From the NCBI GenBank assembly GCA_025266875.1, contig JALLLT010000051.1:1-64000 (forward strand): a stretch of DNA of 64,000 nt. Reading direction: 5' to 3'. The DNA comes from Fennellomyces sp. T-0311. Lineage: Eukaryota; Mucoromycota; Mucoromycetes; Mucorales; Lichtheimiaceae. Below are positions 11,979 through 60,288 of the stretch, one piece after another. The notes beneath the pieces were generated by a model. It was not told where the DNA came from, made no database searches, and was given only the letters and a program-made list of their open reading frames with translations. Position 1 is the first letter of the stretch. Each line of letters opens with the position of its first letter. The position numbers and the translations under genes were made by a program.

Positions 11979-13292
11979 ATGTACCGATACCTTTTCCGGA
12001 ACAACAGAAACGACAAACCTTTGACGAACGAACTTACTGTGTTGGACAACATCACCACCATGCTCCCACCACCGACTCTTATCTTTTCCGGCCACGAATA
12101 TGAAGATTTTCGTGAATTCAGGCGAGAATTCAAATCTTACATTCTGTTAGCTGGCGCACAGACCACCGATAGAAAAGTTGAACTTTTCCACGCCGTACTC
12201 CGAGGACCTGCATTGACCTTTTTCGAAATGAACGTTTACCCTGACTTTATCGCCCGAAGCCAATTGGCAAACGAAGACACGCAGAGGACCCAACCCATAA
12301 TCGACTATATCCTGGACCAATTTCAAGCCGAATACGTGACGTACAACGACATTTTACGCTACATCGAAGAATTTGATGCCATGAGCCAGAGACACAACGA
12401 AAGCCCCCGAACATTCATGAGCCGAATCCGAGAAGCTGCCCAGAAAGCCGAGATCATCGACGAAGACCGAATCCAATCGAAGTTCAAGCAAGGATTACTG
12501 CCGGAAATCAAGCACTACTGGATGATGGTCTGAGGTATCGCCACCGTAGACCATTTTGATGTCGCCCAAAGCTTCTGGGAAGGACGCAAGGCCGAAGCCA
12601 CACTCAGACACGGACGACGATCGCGTATTCCTTTGATTGCCACAATGGAAGCTGAAGACATGCAGTATTACGACGAACCAAGACATGAATACGACCAGTA
12701 TCGTCAATACGAACAGCAGAGACCACATCGACCCTTCAACAACAACGGCTTCACCAGATGAAACAACGACGAATACCAAAATCGATGGAATGAACGACAG
12801 CCTCGATACAACAACCAACGCGCATTCTATCAAAACCAGCCGAACCAAGCACACGGAAATCAGCAATCGCTCTCGTATCAAGACAGGCAACCGCATCAAT
12901 CTTACCAAAGCAGACCTCAACCGCCTTACTACCAGAACCGACAACAAGGACCTAACAACGGTTTCCAGCGAAACGCCCCACCTCGCCAACAACAATGGAC
13001 ACCACGTCAAGCCAACCAAGAAGCGCATCAAAACCGGAACCAAGCTCAACCATCGACTGATTACCCAAGGAACCAAGATCATACGAATGTGCAACGACCT
13101 GTGAAAGAACCACTTCAACAGCAAGGAGACAGACGAAACCAATTTGAAACCTTTGCACACATCGAACATCGAGACGACGGATACCTTGAAGGCGACGAAC
13201 AAGATCAATACGGTTACACCTGGAATGACGACTTCGAAGGACCTGCCCAATATTCTGAATACCAGTCAAAAAACGAGGAGGGCCAGTTGTGA
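11979..13292 (+). pseudogene. gag: gag of the gypsy element
   Basis: Structural polyprotein gene, about 437 codons from ATG 11979. The frame is broken by two TGA codons, 12531-12533 and 12759-12761; both positions would read Arg if CGA, so CpG transitions explain them. The first part has the helical capsid-like region of Ty3/gypsy Gag (FREFRREF, ALTFFEM, LPEIKHYW). The second half is Gln/Asn/Arg-rich, fitting RNA binding, without a CCHC knuckle that I can see. The frame ends in TGA 13290-13292 just after a slippery heptamer, so Pol is made as a fusion. Confidence 0.85.
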
Positions 13293-13315
13293 GAAATAAC
13301 GGTCAACTGAACGCC
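13268..13315 (+). promoter_or_regulatory. Programmed -1 ribosomal frameshift site (gag-pol)
   Basis: The heptamer A-AAA-AAC (13268-13274) is in exact gag phase (TCA AAA AAC). A 6-nt spacer is followed by a hairpin: CAGTTG (13284-13289) pairs with CAACTG (13304-13309), and outer GGC (13281-13283) can pair with GCC (13313-13315). After slipping, reading continues CGA GGA GGG into the pol frame, which is open from there. All three classical elements are present at normal spacing. Confidence 0.85.
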
Positions 13316-16300: not shown

Positions 16301-17964
16301 ATGGGTAACCTACCTCAGCGAATTCGAGTTTGACGTTATATACATTCCGGGCACCAAGAATCGCGCAGCCGACTACCTCAGCAGAATGTACGACAATGAA
16401 CCTGAAGCAATGACACAAGACGGACGAAATGACCTGGCTGAAGAACTTGACACCGACGAAGGAGAACAAGAAGAAGGCACGCCGCCTCAATTCCGGACCG
16501 ACCACAATTAGGCTGAGCCAAAGGGATAACCATTCCTTATTCGACCGATTGTTTACATTTCCCATGACCTACACCACCGGTACACCTCGATCCACCTTAT
16601 CTACACTTCAAATTACATCAATGGACGAACAACAATACAACGATTTGAAGCATTACCTCGAAACCTTCGAAATCCCAAGAAGCTACGACGCCAAGCGCCG
16701 AAAGAACATCAGACAACAAAGCAAACGTTACTTTGTCAACGGAGATAAACTATTCCGATCCGGAGACCCACCGAAACAAGTGTTAACACGTGACGACGCT
16801 GAAGAAGCACTTTTTGTGCTACACACCCACCCGTTTGGAGGTCACTTTGCCTACCAAAGCACCCTGAACAAGTTGAAAACCAAGTACTTTTTCCCTGGCA
16901 TGACAACATACGTGAAGAAGTTTATCGCCCAATGCAAAAGATGCCAAAAACAAGGACGCCCGCGCATACAAGAGCGATTACACCCGATACCAGTGACGGC
17001 AATACCATTTCAAGAAATTGGCATGGATATCAAGCACGTACCCATATCAAGAACTGGACACCGATATATTGTTGTGGCCATTGACAAGTTAACCGGATAC
17101 GTCGAAGCACGAGCACTGAAATTCGCAACAGCTGCTGAAGTATCCCTCTTTCTTTATGAAGACGTGATATGCAGGCATTCGTTCGTGAAGACCAGCTGCA
17201 TCACCGACCGAGGAGTACACTTTGACAACAAGCTTCTCAGTGCTGTTTGCGAGCAGTACTCCATCCAACACAAGAAGTCTTCTCCATATCACCCGCAAAC
17301 CAACGGATTAGTTGAACGATTCAACCGGACTCTTGGACAAATGCTACGATTACTACCTGAAACGCAAAAGAAGGATTGGCCAAGTTACCTACCTGCGATC
17401 CTATATGCATACCGGATCACCCCAAGAAAAGTAACCAAACATTCGCCATTCTACCTCGTTTACGGAAGGCTCCCAAACACCCCTCTGGATTATCGGATAA
17501 ATCCTACGACCACGGATCAAGATGCCTCAGAAGACGAAGGAGAAGAGATCATGTTTCAACATTTTCTCGATCAGCTCAATAGACTGGATCAAATCCGCCA
17601 AGCAGCCTCATCATCAATTGCGCAATCGCAAGAAATCCAGAAGAAGGCCATCGAACGGAAGATCTTATCTCGAAACAAGGAATTCAAGCCGCCCTTTTGC
17701 CTAGGAGATTACGTTGAAGTTTACCAAAACATGACGGTGGACAACTGGGCTGGAAAATTACTCGATACCTGGAAAGGACCATATCTCATCCACCGGATCA
17801 ACAAGAACGGATCATACCGACTCAAGACGACTGAAGGAAAAGTTTTGCCAAGCCCTATCCATGGTAACCGCATGAAGCTATATCGATTACCAGACACGGA
17901 GTATCGCCGTTTCACCTCTCAAGCATCAGATCATCTCATCTCTGCAACTGGACTAGTTGGTTAA
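13274..17964 (+). pseudogene. pol: pol of the gypsy element (PR-RT-RH-IN), frame-broken
   Basis: Entered by -1 frameshift. Protease: ALVDTGAAKTCMS (about 14014-14052). Reverse transcriptase: DFRLTIDYRRIN (15292-15327), then a break near 15484-15490 where one base is missing, then FYDD (about 15595-15606). A second 1-nt loss near 15945-15950 precedes RNase H (KLTIDGCKNGLGG). A third frame change near 16500-16515 enters integrase. Integrase has HTHPFGGH/CKRC zinc ligands, Asp in GMDIKHV, Asp in CITDRGVHF, Glu in GLVERFNR, and a GPY/F-like C-terminal module (DTWKGPYLI). All domains are otherwise well preserved. The first two breaks lie in short base runs, so mis-assembly is an alternative to real decay. 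Confidence 0.9.
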
Positions 17965-22778: not shown

Positions 22779-25700
22779 ATGCCATCCTATCGTTCTTGCC
22801 ACTGTAGTGAATGCAAGGGTGCCAAAAATCAGTTACCACGCACCATTGTGAATCATGTACTTCGAGATGAAGAGAGAGAGAGCTTAATATGCTGGTTGGC
22901 AATGGTATATAGCTATATATACAGAAAGCAGAACGACATTTGGATACACTGCTAACTGAAGTTCTTCCTGTAGCTAACGACGCTTCTGCTGTGAATGACA
23001 ACAGCACGTCTCTTACTGATAATGATGACAACAATTATCAAATGGAAGTCGACGATGGTATGCCATAAATTAGTATCGATTGTCTGTGTGAAGTTGCTAA
23101 AGCAAATTAGATCAAGGCCAGGCCGGATGGCTTGCTGACGATTTTCACGAATTTCACAATGAACAACAGCAGCAGCAGCAATCGATGCTGGAAGTTCAGA
23201 GAACCTACGATGCTGGAGGCTTCGCTGCTTTTGAGCAGGAGCATGTCCTGCAAACAGCTGAGGAAGCCGAAATGAAGATGTTTGAAGACGAGGATGACTT
23301 CCTTCCTGATGTGACTACAGCTGAAGAAGCTGTTCCCGAAAGTATGCTCAGTCTTAATTTATTCTGCGATTCCTCTTTCTGACATTTTTCTACATTAGAT
23401 CCTACGCCAATCCAAAATTTGCTCTACTTTATCACCTACTTCGCTTCGCTTTTCCACTTGCTCTCACTCACTGATAAGGCTGCAACGACGCTGCTTTATT
23501 TCTTCAACATGATATTGCCACTGTTCAGCAGCGATGCTGGCATCGCGGGTGCACCATCCACTGTGAAGAAAGCAATCGGCTTCGACCAGTACGCAAGTCA
23601 AGTCAAGCGGATTGTTGTCTGCTCTGAATGTCATAAAACGTATGATATGAATCGCGAAGAAGTTCCCTTTACATGTGACTATGTCCGCTATCTGAATCAC
23701 CCTTAGGAAAACCATCGCCAGCCATGCGGACACTCTCTGTTCAAGGATGCACGGAAGCAGCGACCACGGAAGGAATATGCTTACAGCAGCCTCAAAGCGC
23801 ATATCAAGCAGCTGTTTGCCCGCGAAGGCTTTGAAGAAAGCATCAACCTGTGGCGTAATCGCCAAGTGCTGCCAGACACTTATTCTGATATATATGATGG
23901 AGATATGTGGCATGCAATTCGCGATCCTGACGATGGTTCATGCAGTTATGTCCAGGACCACCGCTGAGCACTCCTTCTTACATTGAATATATTGACTGGT
24001 TTAACCCGTTCAAAGGATCCATGTATTCGTGTGATGCCATATATCTGACTATCAATAATCTTCCTCGTATGCAACGCTTCAAAAAAGAAAACGTTATTCT
24101 TGTTGGGATCATGCCGGGGCCAAAGGAACCATCCACATATGAGATCAATAATTATCTCAAGCCCCTCATTAACGAATTGGAAGAATTGTACCGGAGAGGA
24201 GTCAATGCTCCTACTGACAACCCAGACCTCGAAGATGATCATGTACGAGCAGCGTTGCTCAATGTCGCCTGCGATATACCTGCTGCAAGAAAGGTATGCG
24301 GCTTTCTAGGCCATATGAGTAGTCGTGCTTGCAACAAGTGTGATCGAACATTTGAGACCGTCGATGGCAGTGTGCAGTACTCTGGTTTCGCCACTATTTA
24401 CAACCAGCCAACTGCAGATCAAAACCGTGCTGCCGCCGCCGAATGGCTTAAAGCAATCACAAAGTCTGGCCAGGAAGAGAAGGAGAAGCAGTTTGGTGTA
24501 CGATGGTCGCAGCTGCACCGACTTTTGTACTTTGACGTAGTTAACTGCACAATCGTTGATTCAATGCACAACCTATTGCTTGGAACAACTGAGCATATGA
24601 TGAAGACATGGATCGATAATGGGGACCTTACCGACGAGCATATGCAGAGCATCAAGGCCAAAGTTGAATGCATCATCGTCCCGCCAAACTTTGATGTCTT
24701 AAAGACACAGAACATCTCGTCGTCTGAATTCTCGTTTATGAAGGCAGCAGACTGGAAAAGTTGGTGCCTAGTTTATTCGCCGTACCTGCTGCATGCGTTA
24801 CTTGACGAGACAAAGTTTGGCAACTGGATGAGTTTTGTCAATGCCTGCCGTTTGCTATTCAAGCCTTCGTTAACAAAAGCAGAGGTCGACAACGCTCACA
24901 CATTTATGCTCGATTTCTGCACAGAGTCCGAGGCGCTTTATGGCGGCAATAAAGTTACTCCAAACATGCATATGCACATCCACCTCCAGAAGACCATTCA
25001 TTCATTCGGTCCGGTATATGCATATTGGCTTTTTGGATTCGAACGCTATAACGGGATGCTTGGGAGGATCCAAACCAACCGCAAAGACTCCTTTGAAGTG
25101 ACCTTTATGAAACGGTTTATAGAACTTACTTTGTCGACAAACTTCATCAACTCGCCAAAGGCAAAAACTCGCCTCAATGTCCAACAACGAGAGTTTTTGA
25201 CACTTATGGCGAACACCCCACCATCCTCCACCATTGCTGCTCGCTTAAACTCGGCCGATGCCTTCAATATCCACGAGTTTACCCTTAACTCAACCCAGTT
25301 ACGCAACTCAACTGGCGCAGAAGTACTTCCTTCAGGCACTATTACAAGCAACTTCCAGTTCTGCAGTCTTGGACGCTCATTACTTTACCATGCACTTGTC
25401 CAGTATTATAATGTGACATACCACGGCCGCGTTAGCCACGGTGTATGCAATCATCTAAATCCGAAACCTGGATGCGTGATCGTCAATCCTGATATTGACA
25501 AGTTCATGTCACTGTCCCTCCAAGGATACCAGTATCAGTGTATTGAAGGAAGAGCCATTCGTGGGTCTTACATCTAAGCAATCTTTCTTCAAAGCAACAG
25601 CAACCACACTACTGCATACCCTGGGCAGGTCCAATTCTACTTCAGGCACAAGCAGATAATTGGCGGCCGCGAACAAGAGCATTAGTTTGCCTACGTTTGC

Positions 25701-27067: not shown

Positions 27068-27374
27068 GGGTAGACTAAGTTTTAGGTAGTCAATAATAGA
27101 TAATTCAATCTGGATGTACATACTTCAGTAACGATGAAAAGTAAAAGTTTGTGACCTAAAAAGAGAACGAAGTTGAAGGTGTTGTCAATCGCTACAATTT
27201 ATACATAGTCGGATCCAAGCAGCTTTCTGTATTTCTGGACATTCCCATTTTGAGTGAAATATTTTGGCAACCTCAAAACAAGGAACTAAGACCCGCGGCT
27301 CTTTCACTCATATTTTTTTCGTTACTCTTATTCTTTACGCGTAAATCACAAATGCTCATTGAGGTTAGCAATGG

Positions 27375-30300
27375 GGCCCGGATAATATGGGTGGAGTCGC
27401 AGGAGCCAATAAAAAATCGTTTTTAACTGACCAATGAGAATTGCGTTATCAACGACAGTTGGCTGAGACGGGAGGAAAACAAGCTCAGCTGCTGACGCCT
27501 GGTAACAAAATTGCTTCTGCATAAGACGCGTCTACATCTAGTGTGTTCAATCTCAACAATGGGAAAACCAGTTCAGAAAAAGAAATCTAGACTCGGCCGC
27601 CCAACTGGGCAAACGAATAAAAAAGGTCATGGCGCCGGCAGACCGAAAAAGCATGTTAGGGGCCAAACAACTTTGTCGTTTGGACCTGAACCTTCGATCG
27701 CAGATGTCACCAATGGCGACGATCAGTCAGTCGCCAGCAGCAGCGACTCAGAAAACATTGAGGTGACAACAAAAACAGGAAATAATATCGAAAACGAAGA
27801 TAATGAGGCCGACGACACTGTATCACTGGGCAACTTGCTTTATAAGGACAATCGTTGGGCAGTAGAACAAGACACAGATCAAGTTCTGGAGAATTTCGAA
27901 GAGATGGACGAGTGGGAAGACGAACCTGATGAGAATTTGGATAGCGTCGAAGATTCTACTGAATCACATCCTACAGCTAGTATAATCGACAAGTATATAG
28001 GTGAATTGCGCACACGCATAATAGCCGATAAATGCGTTGCCGAATACAAAGAAGGCACATTTTGGGCGCGTCGCAAGGACCCATATTTCGCTTTGATCCA
28101 CAATCTCGATCCGTCACACGCATATCTTCCGCGCGTGTTTCTGTGGTTTCCTCATCATTTGCTAAACGATCTTGGCAAAGAATTGAAGTGTCCCAATTGT
28201 AAAGCCATATTGAACTCAAAGGGTCCCACAGAAACGGCGCGTAGGGTTGTCGATCTCGACAGGTAATTAGCAGAAGAATTTTTACACATATAACTGGTAC
28301 TAATATGTGGTTAAAGCTGCTTTTATATTTTGGGATGCCGTTACGAATGTACCACTAAAGGTTGCACACCTTCAAGTTATGTTAGTAACGACAAGCAAAT
28401 CATCCGCTCATTACCAAGGTTCTTGCAGTCGCAGTACCCAGGATATATGACGCATCGTGCCGGCTTATCTAAAGCTGTTGGCGACCTCTTGCGACCCTGT
28501 ATACAAAATTCTGTCGGACCGAAGCGCTTTCAAAGAATCATCCAGCAACTGCATTTGCTACGCCATTCTCGACTCGAGCTGCAGTATCTTCAGACTGCTT
28601 TTTTCCGAAAATCAAATCCTTTGGTTGACCAGACGTCAGATTCTACACTACAATCGTTTTCACCTTTCGAGGATCAAATGGGCTATGCAGGATATGTGCC
28701 ATCGCCACAATATTTTCGCTCTTTCTACACCAGTTACATGAACGAAATACGCCACTTGATTGACAAACAGATGCAAATTCTGGGCGGCAAGTATCTTAAA
28801 GGCGACCACTCCTTCAAAATCATCAAACGTATCAGTAGAATCAATGGCACACTGTCATTTACAGCACTTTATACCGTCGTGAACGAGTATGAAGAAGTGC
28901 GTATCCAGTTCCTCGTGCCGACTAAGTCTTTGTCTCACCTGAAACATGCCTTCGAAGCTATGCGCAATGCGTTTACCTTATATGGTCATGAACAGCCATC
29001 CATTTTTTTCACTGACAATGTCAAAGGAGACAAAGCATTTCTGGAGAGCATTTTCTCTTCGCTCAAAATCGATGTCGTTCCAGTCCAACGTCCAGAACCA
29101 GCAGATGAAGTAGAGAATGAGCTACCTCGTCTTGAAATACCATCGAATGTGCAAATTCAGTGCCTCACTCAAAGTGAAGAAATCCAAGCTGCGGCATTGG
29201 ATATTATGCACCAGACAAAAGTTGACACCGACGGCCAACCCACCCAGCAGCATTTCGTATGTGTTGGATTTGATTGCAAATGGCCGCTCCCTGAGGCAGG
29301 ACGATCACGCCAAAAAATTGCTACGATACAAATCACATGTGATGACATTGTCTACGTATTCTGCGTTAGTCGTCTTAGAGAGCTACCTTCAGCCCTGAAA
29401 GATGTACTTTCATGCCGGTTTATAATCAAAATAGGCAAGAAAGTGGATACGGATCTTAAGTACATCAGCCAAGATTTCAACGTGGCGTGCAACGGTGGCT
29501 GTGACATTGCTACTTATTGCAAGAGACAACACATTATCAATGACGCTAGAATGGGATTAGCTGACATATGTACCGTGGTTCTTGGTCATTATCTTCCAAA
29601 GGGCGATGTGCGAACAAGTGACTGGAGTGTCGCAACCTTGTCACAAGAGCAGGTTAACTATGCCGCTCTCGATGCATGGGCAGGGCTTCAAATCTACGAA
29701 GCATCCAAGGAATATGAATTTGTTGGTTTACCTGTTTTGCAATCATCAAAAGAAGGTAGACATTGTCTGAGAAAGGCAACGTCGAAATCATTCTTTTAAC
29801 GACAAAAAATAGGCACACATGTGTCATACCATGTAGGATCAGTAACGCAAATTGCTGCTTACAGAGAGATTGCCATGCAACAGGATAAATGCAACGGATC
29901 AAAAGTGGGAAAGCACGAAACCATTGTCAAAGTCAAACAAGTTGTTATTCCGGGTACCGTAGATGCTAGAGGAAAACCACTTGGCTCCTTTGAGAGTGTG
30001 CCGTTTGAAACTATTTTAAGACTATGCGATCTGCGTACTAGTCGTGCTGTTGAAGATGCCATTCCAACTGAACTCGCTCAGAATGCCGATGTAGGAGCTA
30101 TTACAGGTATTAATACTGTTTATCATTATGGGACTTTTGATTGCTTACTTCATTTCAAGACCAAGGGACAGAGATTATGTCCATCGAATCACAGCAGCAG
30201 AATAATCAAGGCCCTGATACAGAGACAGAAGATGCTGCATTCTGTAATGATACGAGCGATGGTAAATAAGGAATTCTAGATTCTACTACACTGGTGATAA

Positions 30301-32482
30301 TTTAATAACCACTTAATAATCACGTAGATGAAGTTGAATACCACTCTGAGGAGCATCTGCAAGGCTTCCACGGTCAAAATTTTGCTAATTCAGAAGTGGA
30401 TCAGGAAAGTTATCAGCATGGAAAAAATATTTTCCGTGAGCTGCCGAGTCATCCAGAGGCTAGAAATGTCATAAGGTCCAGAATTTTGAAGGATGTTTTT
30501 CATCTTATGGATATGATTAAGGTACCTCGAAGACATGGACTTGCAAATGACTTTTCGAAGAAGCTACGCGATGCACTTTTCATTGTGGATGAAGCTGACA
30601 AAGCAAACGTCGAAGCAGTACTCCACAAGCAAGGAACATCATAGAAGAGCAAGCTTCTAAAGAAACCTGATTGGATCTTTCGCCGCGTTAAACGTGAGTA
30701 CAAGAAATAATGCCAACACAAGTCGATAAGATGGACTTATGAATGAATATCTTTCTACATAGGTGTTGTTCCTCCCCCTGAAACTCTCTACCTAGATGTC
30801 CGGAACGTCTTTCAGAAATATGGACCAATGAAATGTGCAAAGACTGGTCGACCGCTGTTCGATAAGGAAGCTTGGAGACAGTCCAAAAATGTACTGAAAG
30901 CAATTCACGAAGGACAGGTGTCAGATCCTCCAGGATTTTCGTTCTACTATAAGATGGGTAAAGATAGTAATGGACTGACCCTCTACCGCTGCTGCCGTGG
31001 AACAAATTCACTTGAAGGAGGCATTCACCAAAATGTTATTCGTAAATTTGGATCGTTTGGCGCAAGCCCAGAGCTCGCAGATGCCTTACTTGCAGACTAT
31101 AGACTCCATCACAACATTGACGTAAGTATATCAATTAATAAGCAAGAGCATAGTTTCTGAGCGCATGGTATTTGCATTAGGTTGGTTCTGTTAATAGATA
31201 TGGCAAGGTGCATAAGGGACATTACGAACCGTGGCTTACTCAATCAATTGTTGGCCTGAGGGCAATGCTCGAACTTCCATTCGCATATAACGCTCCTGGA
31301 ATCCATCAACATGCCACATATCTTCAAAGCTCGGGTGAAACGTTTGGTATTGCTACGATACCCATTGCGCTTATGCAGCAATACGGAATTCGATCGATTG
31401 ATGATGGCAATACTTCCAATAACTCAACTTCATCAGTAACAGAAGAAGACTTAGCGTCCCTGGTCATATTGACTGGATCTACATTACAAAAACATGGCGC
31501 TCAGTACGAGTTTATCAGAAGAAAACAGAAAGCACGACATGCTATACTTCCTGTTCATACTGACGCTGAAAATCAGTTATTCGATACAATCATGCGAAGC
31601 AAATTTGCCCAGCATATCAATCAAGGAAAGCTGCCCAACTTCGATGAATTTTTAACGTACTGGAATCGAGATGACACCGTTGATGGAAAGCAGGTGTTCT
31701 ACAAAACACCGGAGCATTTACGAAGCTACTACAACACTTGGAAAGACAATAATAACATTGCAGCTTCAAAGAATGCCAACCGCGACACCATTCACGACAT
31801 TGAAGCCGAGTTAGACTCGCCCAATAGAAAGCGCTCCATCGCCAATGCACAGCAACCTTCTCCGCTGAAGATTCCTCGCATCATCATTAATCATCGACCT
31901 TCCATCGTTACTAAGCCTGCGAGACAACAAATGCCAAGAGCGATTGTACCCACGCCACTTCCTCAGCAGACATTGCAGCTACACCAAGTGACCCAACCGC
32001 CACTAACCACCAATCTACCTTTGTTCTCTTTGTCTTCGTTAGCATTACAACAGCAGCATTCTTCTACTGCTCAACAACGCTTTATCCAACCTTCCAATAT
32101 TGCACCCAGACCAGAACTTTTTGCTCAACAATCACAAAGTAGAACCTTTTTCAAAGATTTGCCACCACGGCGGAAGCCAAGTAGATGTAAAAAGTGCTTA
32201 CAAACTACTTGCCGAGGTGGATCGAAGCGAACCGATGAATGTCGACGTCAATATGGACCATAAAAGGACCCATTTTTAGCATAAATATACAACTTTTAGA
32301 TTTCTTTTATATAAAAATACAATCCATATCAAGCACACTTCTTTGTTTTATGATATATAGCTTATATTTAATATTCATCTCTTATGAGAAGCCTTGATTC
32401 ATTGCAAAATTGGCCCTCGCTACGCTTCAGGCCAATTTTGGAAAAATTAAGTCGCGTCAACTCCACCTATATTACCCGGGCC
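27375..32482. mobile_element. Exonuclease-bearing DDE transposon, copy 1
   Basis: 5,108 bp. Left end GGCCCGGATAATATGGGTGG; right end reading inward GGCCCGGGTAATATAGGTGG; about 22 of the first 25 bases match. AGCAATGG lies directly on both sides (27367-27374, 32483-32490), an 8-bp target duplication. One long gene fills it. It sits inside the CACTA element between the minus accessory gene and the right subterminal repeats. The 8-bp duplication excludes CACTA, Harbinger, Tc1 and Helitron; hAT, P, Merlin and Zisupton-like groups also make 8-bp duplications, but the protein does not look like those I know. Confidence 0.9.
27559..32263 (+). pseudogene. DDE-like transposase with embedded DEDD 3'-5' exonuclease, copy 1
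   Basis: Seven exons: 27559-28262, 28317-29755, 29813-30106, 30160-30261, 30328-30693, 30763-31121, 31181-32263; total exactly 1,449 codons. In order: Lys-rich start with GRP hooks; a Cys-rich domain (VFLWFPHH, CPNC at 211, CRYEC) resembling what I remember as DUF6729; an RNase-H-like region with GDHSFKI (Asp398) and FFTDNVKGD (Asp468); a DEDD exonuclease with GFDCKWP (Asp554), KVDTDLKYI (Asp614) and YAALDAW (Tyr683, Asp687); a segment RGTNSLEGGIHQ (Glu1053); and a C-terminal zinc module RCKKC...CRGG. The only break is TAG at 30642-30644 (codon 952), aligned with Trp in copy 2. Exo motif I has Lys where Glu is usual. Confidence 0.85.
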
Positions 32483-33563
32483 AGCAATGGCCTTTGCATA
32501 CAAAAGCACTAAAACATTTTAAGTTTATACGACAGCTTTCATAATTACTCGAGAGGTTAGTCATCAGGCTGTGCAAACTGAACGTCGCTTACAAAGCTTT
32601 AGGTTATGAGATAAAGCACTTGGGTAGGTACAGTTATGTATATATATATATTCCACAACACCTGAACATACAATACTAATAATTGCTGCCTGTAGTTCCG
32701 CCAAGATAAAGCTTCATCAGCATTATGGAATTCGCTCTTGATTAATGGTAAGGTACTTTGTATAGGTAGTTAACTTACAGTTTCGTTACATATGACAACG
32801 ATGATCCATGGACGTTACGCTACCTAGGTAAGCTTTTGGGGATAAACAGCCCAAACCCCACTGCTGATCAAACTTTTATAATATGCAGAATACCAGCTGA
32901 GGTATAAGGAACGTGGTAAGTTTTTGACTTTCTCTTCTATATGCTCCATTGACTAAGCTTGATTTTGACTTTTCTATATTACGACTGTGCATCATGGAAG
33001 CTTTGTTGATTTTGTTCTGAATAGCATGGAATTGATGTATCTTGTAGGAACGCTAATTTGACTACTCCATTCCTTTATGTGTCATCAAGCAAATCACTGT
33101 TACTGTTGGTATTTATCGTGTTTTCCTCACCAAATATACGTCTTAATAATCACACGTCTTTAAGCTTGATATGAAATGCCAATGCATATTATTGGTGTGG
33201 CAATGGCCTTCTCCCACCAACAGATCAAATCTTAATGGACTGCATCTGCGGCTGTGTTATGCAATCCTTGCATCTCATTGGTCTAATTATATAGTTTTGA
33301 ACATAGTTTAGCGCAGAAAGTGATACAAAAAGTAAATAAAAGTAGTAAACATATTTGGAAGAAAACGATATTTATACATTGGCTTCTTTTGGAGATCTAT
33401 AAGGTTCTCAGTCTAATAATAGATTCTTATAAGGATTTTCTTTGAATCTTTTAGACACTGAAAGGTTGCTGAAAGATTGAAGTTTCAGCGGCTGAAAGGT
33501 GTCTAAAATTGGATGACAGAATGCCTTTCAGCCATCTGAAAGATATCCTTTCTTGTAGTGAAC

Positions 33564-41333: not shown

Positions 41334-42695
41334 TTATTCATTCATATACTCTAATACTCTGCTTTTGATGTACTCGCGTTTGACTTCTGGAGTATCGAAG
41401 CATTGTCCAAAGTCGCGTGCTTCATATGGTCGGTTTGCTTCTTCGTCCAACCTCTGCTCGTTCACAACATCTTCATTCTGGAATTGCAGAGGATCTTCAT
41501 CATCGACAAGCAGGTTGTGAAGCACGACACATGCGTTAAACCATAGAACAGCTCTTGCATGGTCGGCCTTGCTGCTTTTTCCTTTGCCAATCAAGATTCG
41601 TAGTCCACGTAAGCTTTGGAAGCGCCCTTTGAGAACACCAATGGTATTCTCGACGCGGACCCGTGTTGTGGACAGATAGTAGTTGAACTTTGGGTTTGTG
41701 CCTTGGCTTGCTCTTGGTTCCTTATATGGTGTAATAATTTCCTTGCATAAAGGGTATCCCTTATCGCCAAGAAGATACTCATCGCCTTGGAAATATTTCT
41801 CTGGATGAAGGGCAAGGTCACTGTTGCGCCAAACACGAGTATCATGGACGGATCCAACGAAACCACAATCCGCAAAACGAATCCTCAAGTTGGCGTCGAC
41901 AACGAGCATTGCAGCCAGTGCGTACTGAGACTTCCGGGTAAAGTACTGTTCACCGTTTTCAGCAGGTGAAAAGGCAAGAACAATACCAGTACCGTCTACA
42001 TGACCGATGCAATTGGGAAATCCTGCGATGCTTTGGTTGTCTTCCTTGAGTTGGACTTTCTCTGCTTCCGTTGGCCAATAAACCACATGTTTACGAATGC
42101 GAAGTAGCGCCACAATCACACGGTTTGTATAAAGATCAACAGTGCCAGCACCGACACCGAAACGTGTAGCTACTTGTCCAGTTGATGCAGCATTGCCATA
42201 CATTCCAAACCGATATAATGCAATAATAAATTGGTACATTACTGGTGCTTGAGAATTGTTGGAATTATTGTGAAAGACCTTGTCATTTTGAATAAGATCT
42301 AGAATCGCATAAAACGCCTGCTTCGACATACGTGCGTGCTGTTTAAACTGCTTTTCTGGAAGAGCGAACATAACTTCTGTCATAAAGTTCGAGATCGGTA
42401 TCGATCGTTTACACTTGGGTATCATATATCGCGAGCTTTCGATTATGGCGTATACAGTGTGTGTCGACGTAATGTCGCCAATCACATCATCTTCATCGTC
42501 CATGTCGCTGTCGCTTTTCTGACTGCCTATGTCCTTGTCGATATCTGCCTCGTTGTCAGAATGCCCATACTCGCTGTCAGTGCTCTCAGAACTGTTGTCA
42601 TCACTGCTGTCAAAGATGGATTCGATCAAAGCTTCGGCAAGCAATTGATTTTCGAGAAATTCGAGAGCTTCTTGACGGTCTGAGCGGTTAGGCAT
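41334..42695 (-). CDS. PIF/Harbinger DDE transposase, intact
   Basis: 453 residues from the ATG at 42695 (MPNRSDRQEALEF); an upstream in-frame ATG at 42806 is possible but less likely. Acidic linker (SSDDNSSESTDSEYG), HTH-like segment (ATRFGVGAGTVDLYTNRV), then the DDE_Tnp_4-type core: IGHVDGTG (first Asp), FVGSVHDTRVW, LLGDKGYP (second Asp), TTRVRVENTIGVLKGRF (Glu), and ACVVLHNLL near the end. All catalytic residues are present and there are no stops. Encoded by the element at 39495-42894. Confidence 0.93.
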   Translation of the reverse strand: MPNRSDRQEALEFLENQLLAEALIESIFDSSDDNSSESTDSEYGHSDNEADIDKDIGSQKSDSDMDDEDDVIGDITSTHTVYAIIESSRYMIPKCKRSIPISNFMTEVMFALPEKQFKQHARMSKQAFYAILDLIQNDKVFHNNSNNSQAPVMYQFIIALYRFGMYGNAASTGQVATRFGVGAGTVDLYTNRVIVALLRIRKHVVYWPTEAEKVQLKEDNQSIAGFPNCIGHVDGTGIVLAFSPAENGEQYFTRKSQYALAAMLVVDANLRIRFADCGFVGSVHDTRVWRNSDLALHPEKYFQGDEYLLGDKGYPLCKEIITPYKEPRASQGTNPKFNYYLSTTRVRVENTIGVLKGRFQSLRGLRILIGKGKSSKADHARAVLWFNACVVLHNLLVDDEDPLQFQNEDVVNEQRLDEEANRPYEARDFGQCFDTPEVKREYIKSRVLEYMNE

Positions 42696-44900
42696 ATTCA
42701 ACAAGTTTAAAGTAGAGGGGGAAAATGTATGGGCCTGTCCTAATTTGAGATCAAAACATTTGAAAACATCCGCTGCCAAAAAAAAGGATCTCAAAGTTGC
42801 GAACAATTATCTATAATATGATTGGCTACATTCAACATCCGCTCAAAGTTGGGAACAAAAAGTTTTTTTTAAAAATTGAGGTTTGAGACCCCCTATTATA
42901 AATCTCTTGAATAACCCTTACTTTCACGAGGTTGATGGAATACTTTTTTAGTAGATCTTTAGCAATCTTCGATTGCTTATTCTGGACAAGTGCTTTGGCG
43001 TGATTGTACTGCATGATCATTTCTTCATTTGTCCATAGTTTAAGGTTGTCACAAAACTTGTGAAATTCGCAAGTCTTGGTATAGTACCGAGGGCAAGCAC
43101 GTTCAGTCATTCCACTCTTTGTTAGTGTTAGGAGATGTCTAAACAGTACAAGGACTTAAGTACATTTTCAGCAAGTAATAAAATTATAACTTACTGTTCA
43201 ACCAAATCAGCCATATAAGTACACAATGCAGGTATATAGACATAACGATTTCCATGAGGACCAACCATTTCAATACGATCTGTAAAAATATCTACGCTTA
43301 ACATTCCTGGCAATACTTCATCTTATCCTAACATACTTGTATTTGGAAAAAGGCTCCAGTATCCTTTGCAAGCAATGATGATAAATAGCTTGCTTGGCTT
43401 GTCGAAACCAAAATGCTTTTGAAAACTGCTTGTTTTCTATAACCAGTAAATGCGCCAAGAGTCGGTGTCCTTTATTCGAATCTTTGTCACGATACTCGAG
43501 AGGTATGTTGTCTGATTGTTGTCTGATTAGAATTTATTATACTATTGAAAATACCACGTACATCACTCACCAAGTTTAAGATACAGCGGCCATGCATTGT
43601 TGCATTGGTTGCTAGTTATTACGGTCTGGTCCGAAGCCAACATTAGAGCCAACATTAGGGCCAAAATCGTCTCCCCATTAGATGCTACTGATTTCTAGTA
43701 ATGAGCATGTAAAAATTCAATTATGTGTTTATAAACTTTAAATATACTACAGCATACTTGCAAATGGTGCCACCAGTTGGCGCTGTGGATGTCATTGTAT
43801 ACCTGGTCTTTGCCACAAGTCGCTATGATAGGTCGTGTGGTCATCACATCAGCAAACAGAGGATGGCTGAAAAGACGTTGTGCCAGCTCAAATATATCAT
43901 GATACACCAGTATGATGTCACCCATTGCTTCCGAAAACTGATGTATGTGTTTTTGTGGGAAGTCGATGACCTCGTCGAGGTTAATATGTTCTACCTTGAA
44001 TGGCTTAAAAGATAGTTATTAAAGATGATGATATCATTCAGTAAAATTGGTTATAAGACAACTTACAATTAAGACACAGGCGCCGTCAGCACTTTTGTTC
44101 AAATGATTTTGCAACCCATCCCAAGCAGAAAACCGGTTCTCCACCATTGAGCCTGTCTCATACACTTCATCAGCGATTGATTGAACGACATCATATACTC
44201 TGAATCGCGGTGTTAGTAAAGAAGCTTTAGAGATCGGGATGTCATTATTAAGTACTTACTCTTTATACTGGCTTTTTCATAAATTCGCGTTAACTGCAAC
44301 CTGTGCAATCCTACGCTCACCTTTAGATAAAGTGTTGTTAAAGTTTTGCTGTTTGCCTTCTTTGTATACAGTCGGCATGCCAACTTCAACTATACATTTC
44401 AAGTTATATCACATAAGTATATACTGCATATGCTGCTAGTAAAACGTAAATACTCACCCATTTTATATACCAAGTTCTCAGGCACAGTTTCAGTATCACT
44501 GAGTTCACGAGATATTTCAACAGAATCGATCACCATGTCAATATGATTGCCGCCATAATCGAAATCAAAGTTCTCGGGATCATGATCGAGGGCCTTACTA
44601 GTGTTATGAAGATCTTGTACTTCATGTTGTTGCTTATTACGTTGTGTAGATACGACTGGTTCATTACAAATAAATGCGCGTGCAGATCTGAAAGCCGGAA
44701 TGGGCAACCCTTCATGCTTTTTTCGTATGTGTTCGTGAAGATCTGATTGCTTTGCAAATGGAGTCTTTCCATAACACTCTCGGAATGGACAACAGTGAAG
44801 TGACAGCGACATTTTCGGAAAGAGTGAGCTAAGTCCTACTCTCAGGAAGAAAAGCGCAAAAGAGTGTGACCAGTGTTTTTTTTCTCACTTCATCACACAA

Positions 44901-52135: not shown

Positions 52136-54490
52136 GTTGAGGGAACAGATAAGTGGGAAAGATAAAATAGAAAGTCTATCTATCAACGTAGCACTGTGAT
52201 TTTTAGTGTTCTATACGGAGTTTGAAAGGAACGCTATAGTGTTCATTGATGAGGCTCTTTGTCTGTCCATTCGCACAATTCGGTGTTTAAATAATAAAGA
52301 GTGAAGTTGCCTGAAACGTGTTTCTCTGTTAATCACTTTGGCAAGGCCACGATGAACTGAAGAGAAGTGTCTTCTACGTGCTGCTCAACGTCATGAGCAA
52401 GGTGCTGAACATATGAGGCGTCGACACCAGGATTCAGAGTATCAGGCCTGAGAACATGCTCGAGATGCTGAACGGAGTAGGCAACGACGTGAGAATCCGG
52501 AGTACTGTGAGGCCGAATGTGAACGCAACACTCAGGCACATCGGGAGAGGCGTGCAGCATCTGCAAATAACGAGCATCATTCCGTAATGAAAAGCATCAA
52601 TTAATTTCGTACCTGTAGTTTTAATCGGTTTCATTTAGGAACAAAATGGCGAAACTGATCACAGTGGCGAACAATCTCTCGATAATACTGAAGAGCAAAC
52701 CGAAGAGCAAATCGAAGAGCAAACTGAAGAGGTAAGAGTTGTGTTTTCCATTCACGGACTATTTTCTGAATTAATTTATAGCAGGTGGAAGATATGACTG
52801 AAGCCAGGCCACCAAGGAATTCATATGCGTGGCTGGCTGCTAGATTCCATACAACTATAAAAGAAGGGCCCACGCATGTGTGCTGCTGTTGTGGTGGCCT
52901 GTTCTTTGCATCTTCGGTCAGGACAGTTAATCGTCAGACGCTATTGGCAAATAATACGCTTAAGGTTTTAGTGAACCATATTTTCCAGGTGAACCCATCC
53001 GCTGTAAGCAACGAACTGTGCCATACTTGCAATTCATATTTGAGCAGACACAAGACCCCAAAATTGTGTTTGGATAACGGACTGTAGTTTCCTGCGGTTC
53101 CTGAGGTTCTTTCTTTGCTTACCAGATTAGAGGAACGTCTAGTAGCTGCACGACATATATTTCAACCCATCTGGGCAGTGATGGGCCCTACAGGGCAATA
53201 TCGACAGCGAGGCGCGGTGGTCAACGTACCTGTCACAGTAAACACGACAGTCTCGCAGCTTCCTCGTTCAATGCATGATATGCAAGTGGTTCACGTTCAA
53301 CTCGCACGACGACTCATTTATCGAACCAATTATATCGACGGCAATGTTTCGCCAACAAAAGTCAATAACGCCGCGATATATCTTACAACAAATGGACCAC
53401 TTTATCGTGAAAGACGCATCGAGATGTCGGCAGACTGGTTAGCACAGAGCACACCTGCCAACCAAGAACAACAGCAAGATCAACTAGATCAGATGGCTGA
53501 CGAGGAGGCTGGTGATGAAGGTGGCAAAGATGGTGCAACCATTGCATCGGCTTCTGATAGCAAAACTGTTGGGTCTACTGAAGAAGATCCTGAACCTATT
53601 AATCTGGGTGGACAGGAAACACTTCTTAGTGGTGACGAAGGATTGCGAATGGCTCCTGCGGAAGGGCAAACACCTCTTTCGCTGATGATGGATGACGACT
53701 TCGAGTACCTCGCTTTTCCAACAATATTTGCGGAGGATAGGATGTCACCAGTGTATAATGGCAGAAAAATTCCCTACAAAGAGGTTGTGAAATTGATGGT
53801 GCATCGCTACGATTGACGTGTGGTGGAACGTAATGATCTTCTGTTGCTGATGTATCAAAAATGGCAATTGCTTCAGCTATCAGCAAATTGCCAAGTTATT
53901 CTTTGGAAGCATACTCGTGGACATGGCGATGCATTGGCAGCACGAGATGTATCTACCTTGGGAGTAGTTGATAACATGGTGTCCAGAAACAAGGCGTATA
54001 AGGTTTTCTCTGGTGTAAGATCGTCTGCGGAATATTGGAAACAGGAGAAGATAAAAGTACTCGCGCTTATACGACAATACGGTATCCTAACACTCTTTGT
54101 TACCTTATCAGCTGCAGAAACAAAGTGGCCCGAGTTGATAAGAATCTTGAAAGATGTGGTGGATAAGCAGCAAGTCACTGAAGAAGAAGCCGAAGAGCTG
54201 AACTACAACGAAAAAGCAAGACTTATTCAGGCGGATCCTGTAACGTGCGCGAGATATTTTGGCCCGGGTACCATGTTTGGGGATAAAATAATATTTTTTG
54301 GCGAGCGCCGTTAGGGGCTCACAAAAAAAAGTTAACAGCAACAGCCATATTTGTAGTACTTTAGTACCGATAAAAGATAACTTAATTTCAATATATATTA
54401 AAGTATAATATCAAAGATATAATATAATGTATATAGTGTACAAAAGATACGTAATTCATAGTATATCTATGCTAGGTTCTATGGCAATAT

Positions 54491-57400
54491 TTATTCGCAC
54501 TGTCCTGGCCATAATCTGCCACGGCATTTCCTTTTGTTACAGCTTGGGCATCTTTTTGGACACTGGTGGCATCGATCCGGCTTATATAAACCTTTGCAGG
54601 TTCTTTCGTGGCAGTGAACGCATTCTGTGGGCTTGTGTTGCTCGTCTTCGCACCATTCCGGCCTAGACCTACCTTTACAGGTATCGCTAGTACAAATTGA
54701 GCACTTTCTCTTGCCATCGTTTGCTTGTGATATATATGAGTGCCCTGTCTCTTGTATGAACGAGCCATGTACTTGCGGTGCAATAATGTGCTGTACTGAA
54801 TATGGTGATTGCTCTGTTGGCGACTGCTGGCTGGGCAACGATGAAGGAACTATCACTGGCAATACAGTAGCACTTTCAAAGCGAAGCGGGTGTATGAAGT
54901 GTGGTTGTGTTGGTGGCTGTGCCTGCGACTCCATCTGATGAGACGTCACTACCAATGATGACCCTGATGTTAACGAGGACACTTCAGCTGTTGCGGCTTG
55001 CTGTAAGCGAGGAACCTTTGATGGCGTTGGATCGATGGAAGGCTCAACGTATCGCTTCCTTGATTGCGATTGAAGGTCTTCCTGTATACCCCGGCACACC
55101 TCAAAGTTGATGCTGATAGTGTTGGTATATTTGCTTCTGTCCATTCGCACGTTGTCATAGCCTTGAAGATGTTCCAGAGTCTTGTAAAAGATATTGATTC
55201 CATTTGCTTTCTTCGACCACTCCTGGGCAAGCAAATCCCAATTAGGCTTGGTATCTCGGAATCGTTTGTCATTTTCTAAGAAGCCCTTGAACAACGATAC
55301 TTCTTCCTTTGTATGGATTGGTACGATAGCATATTTTGTTCCTTGTTTCTGTGCCAAATATTCGTACTGATTATCCGTCTGCTTTGTCAAACTGATTGCC
55401 AGATGTGCACTGATCTGTGCGGCGTGCTCAATTGTCTCACTTGCACTGCGCTTGACTTCGACTTCCTTGTTGTTTTTCTCCATTCCAAAGTATTCTATCC
55501 ACGAATCGGGCAGTCGACAGATACCAAAGCTCTCCTCTGTAGATCCTTCAAAGCAAAGGGTATTCCCATGAGGATCTTCTTGTGTAATGAACGGTGGATG
55601 GCCAACTTCAACTCTAAGTCTGTTGATACTCTGAGTAATCCATGGTGAATAATGTCCGGAATATGGTTTTCCATAGCGATTCATGGTACCAACCTATGTA
55701 CCGTAAAGATAACTTTAGCTTTCAGCTCTTTTTTAATAATGACCTAGCATATAAATCTTAACTTACATTTAGATTATGATGCAATACATAATCGACAATA
55801 ATTGCGTCTGTTAGCTGTACACTTGCATTGAACGAGGTGAAACTTCGTATGATATTCTGATGTACTCCACCTTCCACAGAGTTTGTACCGCGGAAACACT
55901 TGTATATCGGCAAATTGTTTTTATCTGTTCTGATGTGGAAGTACAATGAGAGACCGGGTGGATCAGACACATGACCAGCTTGAATAGATTCAAGAACACT
56001 AGCAGCTTGCTTCCAGTTGAGACGATTGAATAGGGCCTGTCCTGTCTTTGCACATTTCAACGGACCAAGTGTCTGGAAAAGTCTGTGCACCTTTGGCAGG
56101 AGCTCACTCGGTGGAGGTACAACCCGCTTAACCCTGCTGAACACCCAATCAGGGTTTCGGTCGACTTCTTCATTCCATGAGCGGCCACCTTTGTCCTGCA
56201 AGAAGGCTTCAACCCGTGTACGGTCATCGGAATCAACAACGAACATGGCATCTCGGAACCGTCTTTTGAACTCTTTTGCGAGACCGTGTTTCAAGGATAC
56301 GTCAACGTAGTCAATCACATGGAATATATCTCTGAGTACTCGAGAATGTACTTGGTTTTCCGTGTTTTCATTGACTGGATTCGATCGTCGCTTCTTTAGG
56401 ACCGATTCAAACAGATTCTGGCCATAGTCAAGGGTCTCTTGGTCAACACCGAGAACTAATTCAGTGGCAATTTCGGGAGAATCATTATCTTGCTCTGTTG
56501 TATCGGCTGGAGATAAAGAATATATGTTACCAAGTGATAATTGCAAATACAAATTGCCTTCACTACATACCATTCTGAAATTCAACAGTTTCATTAACTT
56601 CCGACTGATTATTGTCGCCAACAGTACCGGGTTGTTGCGATTGCGTATTTAAAGAAGACTTTTTTGCTGTTCTCAACTGCGACATACGAACAACTTCTCG
56701 ACAAGGTGTATCACCCAGTGATTGTAATGTCCGCGGTGGTGCTGGTATACGCGATTGGCCTTGCGGTAAAACATGAGCTTCCAATATTGCTGCTGGCATA
56801 TTGACCTTTGAAAACTCCACCAGAATGTTCCCCTCTCCTGATACCGGTATGCCTTCGTAGTATTCTGGTTGATCTTCGACGATTATTCCATACGCTGCAA
56901 TCGTTTTGAACGTTGATCCCGGGCAAAAGCCAACACAAGTACCAGGAGGCGTAATTGATGTAACAGGTTGATTCATAAGAGGCAAACCGGCGACTGCTTG
57001 ATATATTTTGAGAGATGCCCAAACATCCAAGGCGGCATATTTAACCTGAGCTTCTGAAAGCTTCTTCGCTTCCCAATTGCTAAGACGAACAGGACCCTTT
57101 GGCAATCGACGTGAAAGAGCAGCTTCGCATATTCGATCCAGTCCAAGCTTGCCATTATGAATCACGTCACGCTCCCGGCAAAACCGTCCAAGCTCGTAAT
57201 TGAAACCCGGTTTTGTTTTTCCTGACTTGTCTTTTGGTGGAGCACAATCGACGCCATAGTCTTTAGCAATCCTTGCCAAATCGCTGTTGACTTGCTTTCC
57301 CGCTTTTTTGATGGATGTACTTTTTAATACAGCTGCCAAGGATGTAGGTAGTGATCGGCAACGGAAGACTTGGAAAATGTAAATATTGGCGGCCCATGCA

Positions 57401-59201
57401 ATTTGAATAACTGCGACCTTCCCGGATTGCTTTGTAGTTTCGTCGAATCTCCACTCACAATCAAGACCAATGGTAATACCGTTCTTCTTTACCGACTCTT
57501 CAAGAAGTGTGTTGCAAAGACGATTGATAACTTCGGGAGCATCCGCAACTGCTAGCCGGTCCCAGATATCATCCGGAATCTCCAGTACATCGAGGTTGCC
57601 TACGTTGGTAGGAGGTGTTGCTTGTACATCTTGTACGCCGTCCAGAAGTGATGGTATATGATATGTGATACCAAAAAATTTTTATCCCCCTTGACGTTGT
57701 CTGTAAAGAATGCCTTTACCGGTGGGTGGCCAAACTCTTGGTAAGACGCCATCATCGCATCGAACTGAGGACCCAAGTGAGATAGTGCCTTGGTGGGTGT
57801 CAGCTGAAGCAAGCGAATTTCACCATATTCATTGACAACGGTATATATCGCAGAAAAAGTCGGTTGGTCGTTCATAGCTCCCATATTCTTGAGAATTTTG
57901 AAAGAATGGTCGCCTTTCAAAACCTCTCCTCCAGTAAGCTTCACCAATCGTTGAATGTACGGCCGCACAGTAGCAATGATAGCAGTGTATATACCGCGCA
58001 AGTATTTCTTTGATGGAATATAACCAGAATACTTGTTCTTGTCGTTAAATTCGGAAAATTCAGAATGCTTGGTTTCCTGGGAGCTGCTTCTGAACGCTGT
58101 CGCAATCGTGGGCTGCGTGCTTTGTCTATGCTTGACAGCATCCAAATACTGCAGCTCGAGTGTAGCATGTCGCAGCCTATGAATCTCGCGTACAATTGCC
58201 TGAAAGCGGGTAGGCCCAGCTGCATGTAGTGTTGACGCTCGTAGTAAGTTCGCAAGATCCTTGGAGACACCTGACCGGTGTGTCAAGTATGCAGGAAAGT
58301 CTGCTTGTATTCTCAGCGGTAATTGATGAAAAAGACCAGTGTCTGTGCCATTAAACGATGCCTGGTTTCTACATGGCGTTTTACTATCCTGCTTGCATAC
58401 ATAACGTGTTATCACTAGCCAAAAGCAACTAATGAAGTGAAGTTGATTAGTACATTAAGAAGTAGAGAATTATAATTTTACATACTTTGAGACATCAATT
58501 ACGCGTCGAGGTCTGTTGATTTCCTTTATTTCAATTGATAACTTGCATTCCGGGCAGCAGAGGCTCTTGATGGAAACACGATGATGTGGAAACCAAAGAA
58601 AGATAGGCGGATAGTAAAGAGGAGTAGCATCAGCTTCCTGATCAAGCGCAAATGATGGCATCTTTGGATAGTGCCAATAGGTTCCCATAGCATACTCCTG
58701 CGGCGGTTGGCCTTTTTTCATAGTGCGCTTGATATGATTCTTGACGTAGGCTTCAATAACACTGTCTTTGGGGCATTCGGGATCATTCTCAATCTCTGCG
58801 GCATTGATATCATCAATGGCGGTCGCAAGATCTTCGCCGCCGAATTCGTCTTCGAGCATATCTTCTTCATTCACTGCAAGGTAGTCAGGTAGCACATAGT
58901 CGATAGAACTATATCCCTGAATATAGTCTTCATCGTCGCCAATGTCAGCATTTGTCTGATTGCCGGCGGGAGCAGGGTTCACTGTAGTCTTTAATATCAT
59001 TTCATATATAAGCCAATATCCTATATTTTGTACAATATTTTTATATACCTCCTCATCGGATTCAGTAATTTCCTGTGCATGATCGATTGATGAGCTCGCC
59101 AATGTGTCTGGAGTATTGCTTGTAATATACGACGATGGCAATTTTGTTTGGCCAGCGAGCAAGGTGCTCTGTTTCCGGGGTCTTCCTGGTCCTCTTCTCA
59201 A
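54491..59201 (-). pseudogene. DDE-like transposase with embedded DEDD exonuclease, copy 2
   Basis: Five exons: 59201-59049, 58988-58486, 58428-56571, 56506-55767, 55693-54491. Intron positions differ in number from copy 1 but the shared ones coincide. N-terminal AT-hook (RRGPGRPRKQ); Cys-rich domain (IFLWFPHH, CCPEC, RYVC); GDHSFKI and FFTDNVKGD; exonuclease with IGLDCEWRF (both acidic residues present), NSDLARI and YAALDVW; RGTNSVEGGVHQ; and three C-terminal zinc modules (CSICTSDTCKG, CVHCHERTCKG, CPSCNKRKCRG). Total 4,457 nt is one short of a codon multiple; the frame changes at a run of five A and six T near 57671-57685. Otherwise no stop. Divergent from copy 1, so a separate subfamily. 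Confidence 0.85.
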
Positions 59202-59204
59202 TCC

Positions 59205-59640
59205 AGATTGGCCAGCGTGCTACTTAATAGGGGTATTTCCAGTCATAATAACGGATCAATATACGTAACAGTTAAAAAGGTAGGTAGAACGACTTTAATA
59301 CTCCCAATTCAACTCGCTATTTATATTTACAATGCTCGTCCTCAGCCTCTGCTGAGCTTACCCTGAGCATCAGCCGAAAACATACTAATCATATACAGAA
59401 CAGAGAACGAGAACATCCTGCTTTGCTAAGCGGGCTGAAGAGGTATGCTAAGCACAAGTGCATTATAAGTACGAAGAGCCGAGGTGATACAGACTATATC
59501 AAATTCCAAATTCGGACGGATTACATCGCATTTGGACGGATTACATCGCATTCGGAAAGTGAGCTACATCGCATTAGGAAGTTTGTGCACTCAATCTCAA
59601 GATTTGATTCGCTAAATCTACCCCCAAAGACCGTTACTGA
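59205..59640. other. 5' flank of the copy-2 transposase gene
   Basis: Between the gene start and the right terminus. Contains a short tandem GGACGGATTACATCGCATT (about 59515-59552). No gene supported. Confidence 0.4.
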
Positions 59641-60288
59641 GCCGATATTTTGACAAGCGTTTTCGAGAATTGATGAAGACTTGGGCTGCAGAAGACGGGC
59701 CATTTGCTGGTCACAGAATAGCACATCAGTGCCACAGGATTGAGTTCCAGCATAGAGGATCACCTCATGTGCATATGCTCATCTGGTTGGAAAATGCTCC
59801 TCTATATGATTCAACTAATCCTGAGAGTGAAACAACCGTTTGTCAATTTATTGACTCAATAATACGATGCGATTCCTCTCCGACCACAGAAGATGACAAC
59901 CTGCTGACATTGCTCGAACGTCAAGAACACCACCACAGCCGAACCTGCTACAAAAGAGGCCCAAATAGTAGTTATTACTTTGGAACCCCCTTCTTTCTGA
60001 TGGATTGGACCCACATATTGTTCCCGTTGCCTGAGGACACTGATGTTTTTAGTGCCGAGCGTCGAACGGAGCTAAAAGCAACCCATAACAAAGTGCGTGA
60101 ATATCTGGCTTCTGAGCAAGGCACTTATCAGGAAACGTTCGATCAGTTTCTGAGGGCTATATCCTTGTCACTGGATGAGTACATCCTATGTATTCGCCGA
60201 AATTTGAAGAAGGAGAAAGTTTTCTTGCAAAGAGCACCGGCAGACATTTATCGCAATCCATATTCCGAAAAAATATTATGTCTTCAGC

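Follow-up and report, generated by a model that had tools for sequence, protein, structure and literature searches.

We analysed a window of 64,000 nucleotides from Fennellomyces sp. T-0311 (Mucorales, Lichtheimiaceae; contig JALLLT010000051.1, positions 1 to 64,000); 'the window' designates this whole stretch. On its plus strand, at 27375-32482, lies a DNA transposon of 5108 bp, named copy 1, whose single large gene encodes a DDE (Asp-Asp-Glu) transposase with a 3'-5' exonuclease nested in its catalytic domain. A close relative of copy 1 is found elsewhere in the genome, at C174, and a more diverged element of the same kind, copy 2, lies further along the window. The features of copy 1 are as follows.

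27375..32482, plus strand: copy 1, complete exonuclease-bearing DDE transposon (ends, duplication, 99% full-length copy at C174 with different flanks, empty-site paralogues)
27367..27374: left 8-bp target site duplication, AGCAATGG
32483..32490: its counterpart on the right, also AGCAATGG, identical in all 8 bp
27375..27397, plus strand: left terminal inverted repeat
32460..32482, minus strand: right terminal inverted repeat, placed by comparison with the left end
27559..32263, plus strand: transposase gene (manual seven-exon model, GT..AG introns, 1449 codons in frame including the stop)
28114..28608, plus strand: DUF6729 (PF20499), cysteine-bearing N-terminal domain, split by intron 1 (E = 4.9e-14 on the C174 copy, residues 186-332)
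28804..28806, plus strand: first catalytic Asp of the DDE triad (GDHSFK), codon 398
29014..29016, plus strand: second catalytic Asp (FTDN), codon 468
29254..29700, plus strand: WRN-like DEDDy 3'-5' exonuclease domain (PF01612), nested in the DDE domain
30492..30503, plus strand: DxxH motif (DVFH)
31014..31016, plus strand: catalytic Glu of the DDE triad (GTNSLEGG), codon 1053

The boundaries proposed in an earlier note on this DNA, which had pointed to GGCCCGG termini and an exact 8-bp duplication, proved exact to the base. The ends, GGCCCGGATAATATGGGTGGAGT and GGCCCGGGTAATATAGGTGGAGT, are imperfect inverted repeats of about 23 bp, identical at 21 of 23 positions, and similarity is lost beyond them. 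A pattern fitted to known ends had three exact matches in the window, namely both ends of copy 1 and the 3' end of copy 2. When up to three mismatches were allowed, 10 occurrences were found in the window against 9.46 expected, that is, the level of chance; the evidence therefore rests on the pairing of ends and not on the motif. Genome-wide, the 23-mer with up to three mismatches gave 8 matches, 6 of which are the paired ends of copy 1 and of the copies at C174 and C128, while its reversed control gave none at the same threshold. No small non-autonomous copy of this family (family 1) was present among the 8 matches.

The gene comprises exons 27559-28262, 28317-29755, 29813-30106, 30160-30261, 30328-30693, 30763-31121 and 31181-32263. 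This model returns exactly the 1,449 codons that had been announced, but the gene is not intact: codon 952 is an in-frame TAG (30642-30644), and in exonuclease motif I (29278-29280) a Lys replaces the catalytic Glu present in relatives. Judging from its sequence, copy 1 is inactivated because of this stop and this lost residue, which rule out an intact gene. Between copy 1 and the C174 copy there are 51 differences, of which 47 are transitions; 28 of the 47 fall in CpG, which makes up 444 of 2,197 C-dinucleotides. This bias suggests that transposition was fairly recent and that the copies have since decayed as methylated CpG was deaminated.

Besides the 99% full-length copy at C174, a DNA search of the genome retrieved a complete but interrupted family 1 copy at C128 and others that are partial or distant. 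The C128 copy (L028, C128:10343-18651) is broken at two places by other sequence. Copy 2 represents a second family, with a 98% copy at C154, and its features are given here.

54261..59643, minus strand: copy 2, 5383 bp, an element of the same kind from a second, diverged family, within a Helitron_like_N reading frame (ends, duplication, C154 copy with different flanks, ungapped empty sites, split domain)
54253..54260: 8-bp duplication of copy 2, GATATTTT on the plus strand
59644..59651: the second occurrence of these 8 bp, again GATATTTT, at the other end of copy 2

The duplication of copy 2 reads AAAATATC in the orientation of the element. The insertion splits the Helitron_like_N domain, with profile positions 78-150 on the left and 150-191 on the right (the right piece being just below the curated cut-off). 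The joined flanks of copy 2 with one target copy, 252 bases, aligned over their full length and without gaps at C90 and C173, at 98% identity, and an 82% match over 242 bases was found at three further places. For copy 1, the joined flanks matched two places (93 and 91%), with a 1-bp indel within the target and another nearby; insertion is therefore supported there, though not the exact length of the duplication. Both window insertions thus find support in empty-site paralogues. The host of copy 2 is a Helitron-like element (53088-54260 and 59644-61743; DUF6570 and the split Helitron_like_N).

Both ends could be placed in ten elements: the two in the window and those at C174, C128, C154, C165, C149, C173, C44 and C158. 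All ten are flanked by exact 8-bp duplications, which read, on the strand of the fetched sequence, AGCAATGG, GATATTTT, ATGGAAGA, GTCGTATC, GCTTGAAT, TATATTTT, AAAAATTT, AAATTAAC, CTTTATTT and ACAATTTC. These ten observations are of unequal value. In six elements the ends were fixed independently of the duplication, either by homology between copies with different flanks (copy 1, C174 and C128; copy 2 and C154) or by the end pattern at both ends (C173). In the four others (C165, C149, C44 and C158) the search for the second end looked for an exact repeat of the flanking 8-mer adjoining GCC, so that the duplication helped to find it; three of these (C165, C149 and C44) have a common end sequence in different flanks. 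Among the 11 termini submitted to this partner-end test, 4 gave a partner adjoining GCC with an exact duplication and 7 did not; of the latter, one (L035) had the exact 8-mer at a place that is not a terminus, and the other six gave nothing. Imperfect terminal repeats were recognised in nine elements, with similar ends at C158. No variation occurs at positions 1-3 (GGC), 7 (G), 10 (A) and 19 (G) of the 18 ends compared, which belong to nine elements; the rest differs between families. At least 36 separate places in the genome encode parts of the protein, 39 of 210 candidates having been scored. The C173 element (L036) also contains a stretch of about 315 bp not present at that place in its relatives L033, L034, L035 and L037; it recurs separately at L035:5279-5595 and therefore looks like a small nested insertion.

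The claim that a DDE and DEDD exonuclease fusion defines a family is thus borne out by other copies that share the ends and the 8-bp duplications. A chance resemblance or an assembly artefact would account for an end motif that is no rarer in the window than expected. It would not account for ten elements that each have an exact duplication, six with independently fixed ends, nor for homologous proteins in two fungal phyla; we consider it extremely improbable, and the further copies and empty sites refute it.

No common target sequence emerged from the ten duplications, in which 61 of 80 bases are A or T. No transfer RNA (tRNA) gene was detected in the joined flanks of nine out of nine elements (the flanks of C154 comprising no more than about 50 and 43 bp). 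Rfam gave no match at gathering thresholds on the unjoined sequence of the window and eight loci, a search that did not extend to small nuclear RNA (snRNA) genes split by an element, on joined flanks. For six further loci, also unjoined, Rfam reported one tRNA-Ala, 2.7 kb from a truncated copy. This gene (L035:5847-5919, by ARAGORN and Rfam) was rejected as a target, being whole and uninterrupted; the truncated copy at that locus stops near position 3093.

A Pfam-A scan of the C174 protein, at E values up to 1, matched solely DUF6729 (186-332) and DNA_pol_A_exo1 (548-696). Homologues were found in Mucoromycota (Mucor, Parasitella, Phascolomyces, Zychaea, Circinella and Apophysomyces) and in many Basidiomycota. 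The matches of a profile search included fungi, among them Rhodotorula, and a transcript protein, Partr_v1, which we take to belong to the aphelid Paraphelidium. The 21 pattern matches in viral contigs included no relative. The Partr_v1 protein (P0066) combines the exonuclease-in-transposase plan with a C-terminal Ulp1-type Peptidase_C48 domain (E = 3.6e-5), an extra accessory enzyme.

We then assessed conservation on an alignment of 53 homologues and the C174 copy, counting at each position the rows that carry a letter. The DDE residues are kept in 48 of 49, 53 of 53 and 52 of 54 rows, and the DxxH motif between the second D and the E in 53 of 54 (D) and 54 of 54 (H). The exonuclease residues D, E, D, Y and D are kept in 50/51, 50/51, 48/50, 49/50 and 50/50 rows, so that all four acidic residues are present in the family, copy 1 having lost one. 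The exonuclease sits between the second D and DxxH; one nuclease is therefore nested within the other. Cysteines of an N-terminal CCCC zinc motif are kept in 36/39, 37/39, 40/40 and 33/42 rows. Copy 1 ends in a four-Cys motif, and the pattern CxxCx4CxG..C occurs in 14 of the 40 proteins longer than 1200 residues. GRP motifs, which we read as AT-hook-like, occur within the first 250 residues in 29 of the 40 long proteins.

Conservation was also compared between six Mucoromycota-side and eight Basidiomycota-side rows, a few of which were assigned by similarity. Mean identity was 0.41 between the first and second D, 0.33 in the exonuclease, 0.42 from DxxH to E and 0.33 in the DUF6729 region, compared to 0.17 just after the exonuclease. 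This argues that the exonuclease is maintained by selection and not merely carried along.

In a first structure model (P0007, mean predicted local distance difference test score 64.2) the exonuclease dominates, and its closest predicted fold is WRN. As the DDE fold could not be tested on this model, a relative lacking the exonuclease, naturally or by an effect of gene prediction, was folded as well; its best predicted match is ISCth4, a transposase of the IS256 family. In three such relatives from Apophysomyces (P0008, P0011 and P0012) there is either a natural loss or an exonuclease predicted as an intron. The conserved DDE residues and the ISCth4-like predicted fold support the proposal that the single protein is the transposase of a DDE element.

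Transposase superfamilies that have Pfam models are ruled out by the scan, where the hAT, MULE, P and KDZ models found no match at E values up to 1. hAT Hermes and the P element nevertheless resemble the present elements in their helical insertion domain between the second D and E and in their duplications, which are of 8 bp in the P element; they have no exonuclease, and their ends are different. For hAT, 8-bp duplications are given in PMC12730594. KDZ had been considered for its 8-bp duplications; the word 'exonuclease' does not occur in the available text of the same paper.

According to the available text of PMC7780238, ISCth4 makes A/T-rich 8-bp duplications. It shares with the present protein the RNase H-like DDE fold, the helical insertion domain and the C/DxxH motif; unlike it, ISCth4 is prokaryotic, about 400 residues long, devoid of exonuclease, and works by copy-out/paste-in. 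A copy-out route through a circle, as in ISCth4, would fit both this best fold match and the A/T-leaning duplications observed here. We consider it unlikely, however, since eukaryotic transposases with a similar insertion domain, hAT and P, are cut-and-paste enzymes.

The earlier note had found the protein to resemble no superfamily that it could name. This found no support, as the protein corresponds by description to the exonuclease-bearing Dada transposases. In the available text of PMC3706591 (Kojima and Jurka 2013), Dada transposases are DDE enzymes with DxxH and with N-terminal CCCC and C-terminal CCHC zinc motifs; those of Laccaria bicolor and Ectocarpus also carry a DEDDy exonuclease, placed after the second D and before DxxH, and the authors suggest that it processes cleaved 3' ends. 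By the residue numbers given there, the first two Asp are 68 residues apart, and the second Asp and Glu 176; in our proteins the first distance is 70 (median) and the second, without the exonuclease, 163, 189 and 202. Introns and size are similar as well. The CCCC motif is shared, although here its order is Cx2C..Cx4C, unlike the residue numbers given for Dada-U6_DR. The match of domain plan, exonuclease placement and spacings to the published description argues for a protein of the exonuclease-bearing Dada type.

The termini tell otherwise. In the same source, all Dada elements with clearly definable ends lie in small RNA genes, have duplications of 6-7 bp and lack terminal inverted repeats, only subterminal ones being described; a length of 6 or 7 bp is again given in PMC8869645 (2022). 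Here we find inverted repeats of about 23 bp, 8-bp duplications in all ten elements and no sign of an RNA gene as target, copy 2 lying in a Helitron-like frame. The contrast is not absolute, as 8 bp is left open for Dada-U1 (PMC3706591) and single Dada copies outside RNA genes are mentioned (PMC8869645, PMC3706591). The ends of exonuclease-bearing Dada families are not given in the available text of PMC3706591, and we recognised no report of terminal inverted repeats, 8-bp duplications or ends for them in the literature as far as it was accessible, Repbase Reports lying outside the search. By the earlier note, a match to a named superfamily in both termini and protein would refute its reading; the agreement extends to the protein and stops at the termini and the duplication length.

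Because ends, duplication length and target all differ, we do not file the element as a plain Dada. It may instead form a separate superfamily that has only the general DDE/DxxH plan in common with Dada. The inverted repeats, the 8-bp duplications and the untargeted insertion speak for this. A separate superfamily would leave unexplained why the protein agrees with the Dada description in the type and position of its exonuclease, in its zinc domain, in its residue spacings and in DxxH; moreover, Dada is annotated in Ganoderma leucocontextum (PMC8955403, available text), a species that also provided a homologue here (P0030). We regard such a separation as rather doubtful, and describe the element as a putative exonuclease-bearing Dada-type transposon that has terminal inverted repeats, duplicates 8 bp of its target and inserts without targeting. 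The placement of the exonuclease in Dada transposases has been known since 2013; the inverted ends, the 8-bp duplications and the free insertion are what differs from the Dada elements described.

Our preferred explanation, which we consider likely, is that of an autonomous-type DNA transposon with one DDE transposase, which belongs to the IS256/MULE/hAT-like class and has a DxxH helical insertion domain, and a nested WRN-like DEDDy exonuclease. The analysis shows where the ends, the duplications and the empty sites lie, how the domains follow one another and how well both catalytic sets are kept, and it adds predicted folds. The DNA binding, the cut-and-paste (rather than copy-out) chemistry and the exonuclease substrate are inferred, and we propose the following scheme. 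The N-terminal zinc (DUF6729) and AT-hook-like parts would bind the inverted ends of about 23 bp. The DDE site would free the 3' ends of the transposon and join them to an unspecific, AT-leaning target with an offset of 8 bp between its two strands, which would generate the 8-bp duplications. The exonuclease would trim the 3' ends exposed at the donor break; its position beside the helical insertion domain favours an action on transposition DNA. A comparable function is proposed for KolobokD, a DDE element with a DnaQ-like exonuclease thought to degrade 3' ends (PMC9587614, available text). That exonuclease is, however, of DEDDh/TREX type rather than DEDDy, and Kolobok duplicates TTAA.

Alternatively, the exonuclease may act in trans on RNA or DNA, for instance by destroying small RNAs or silencing intermediates, like the MUT-7-type exonucleases in silencing. 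The domain does also resemble MUT-7/Nibbler and RNase D types, and the CpG transitions between copy 1 and C174 suggest host methylation of the copies. We judge this improbable, as the domain is nested inside the DDE domain instead of forming a separate gene, and as its closest predicted fold is WRN, a DNA exonuclease.

A tentative extension is that the exonuclease-bearing transposases of Mucoromycota, Basidiomycota and probably an aphelid form a superfamily of their own. In it, the nested exonuclease would be a second active site that the single transposition machine cannot do without, and the elements would have terminal inverted repeats, join with an 8-bp stagger and choose their targets freely. 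The exonuclease-less, target-bound Dada would then be a derived or sister branch. We hold this to be possible, though not the likelier case. In any event, defined ends, duplications and empty sites are now at hand for transposases whose catalytic domain houses a presumed DNA-trimming nuclease; the available literature gave the protein only. These ends make the role of the exonuclease testable. The elements depart from the rule that those of Dada type are target-bound with 6-7-bp duplications, and large fungal 'hypothetical proteins' with DUF6729 and a 3'-5' exonuclease can be explained as transposases.

The best DUF6729 match of the genome lies at C161:1211581-1212096, in a frame of 398 codons, and is not among the listed transposase matches, for which 39 of the 210 candidates were scored; it is possibly a host gene derived from the transposon. 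The window also contains other transposase reading frames, namely DDE_Tnp_4 (41334-42806, minus strand), two DDE_3 (1829-3229, minus; 8227-9036, plus) and Transposase_21 (tnp2; 23940-25577, plus). Finally, frames resembling a long terminal repeat retrotransposon, with protease, reverse transcriptase (weak) and integrase, are found at 13289-17964 on the plus strand.

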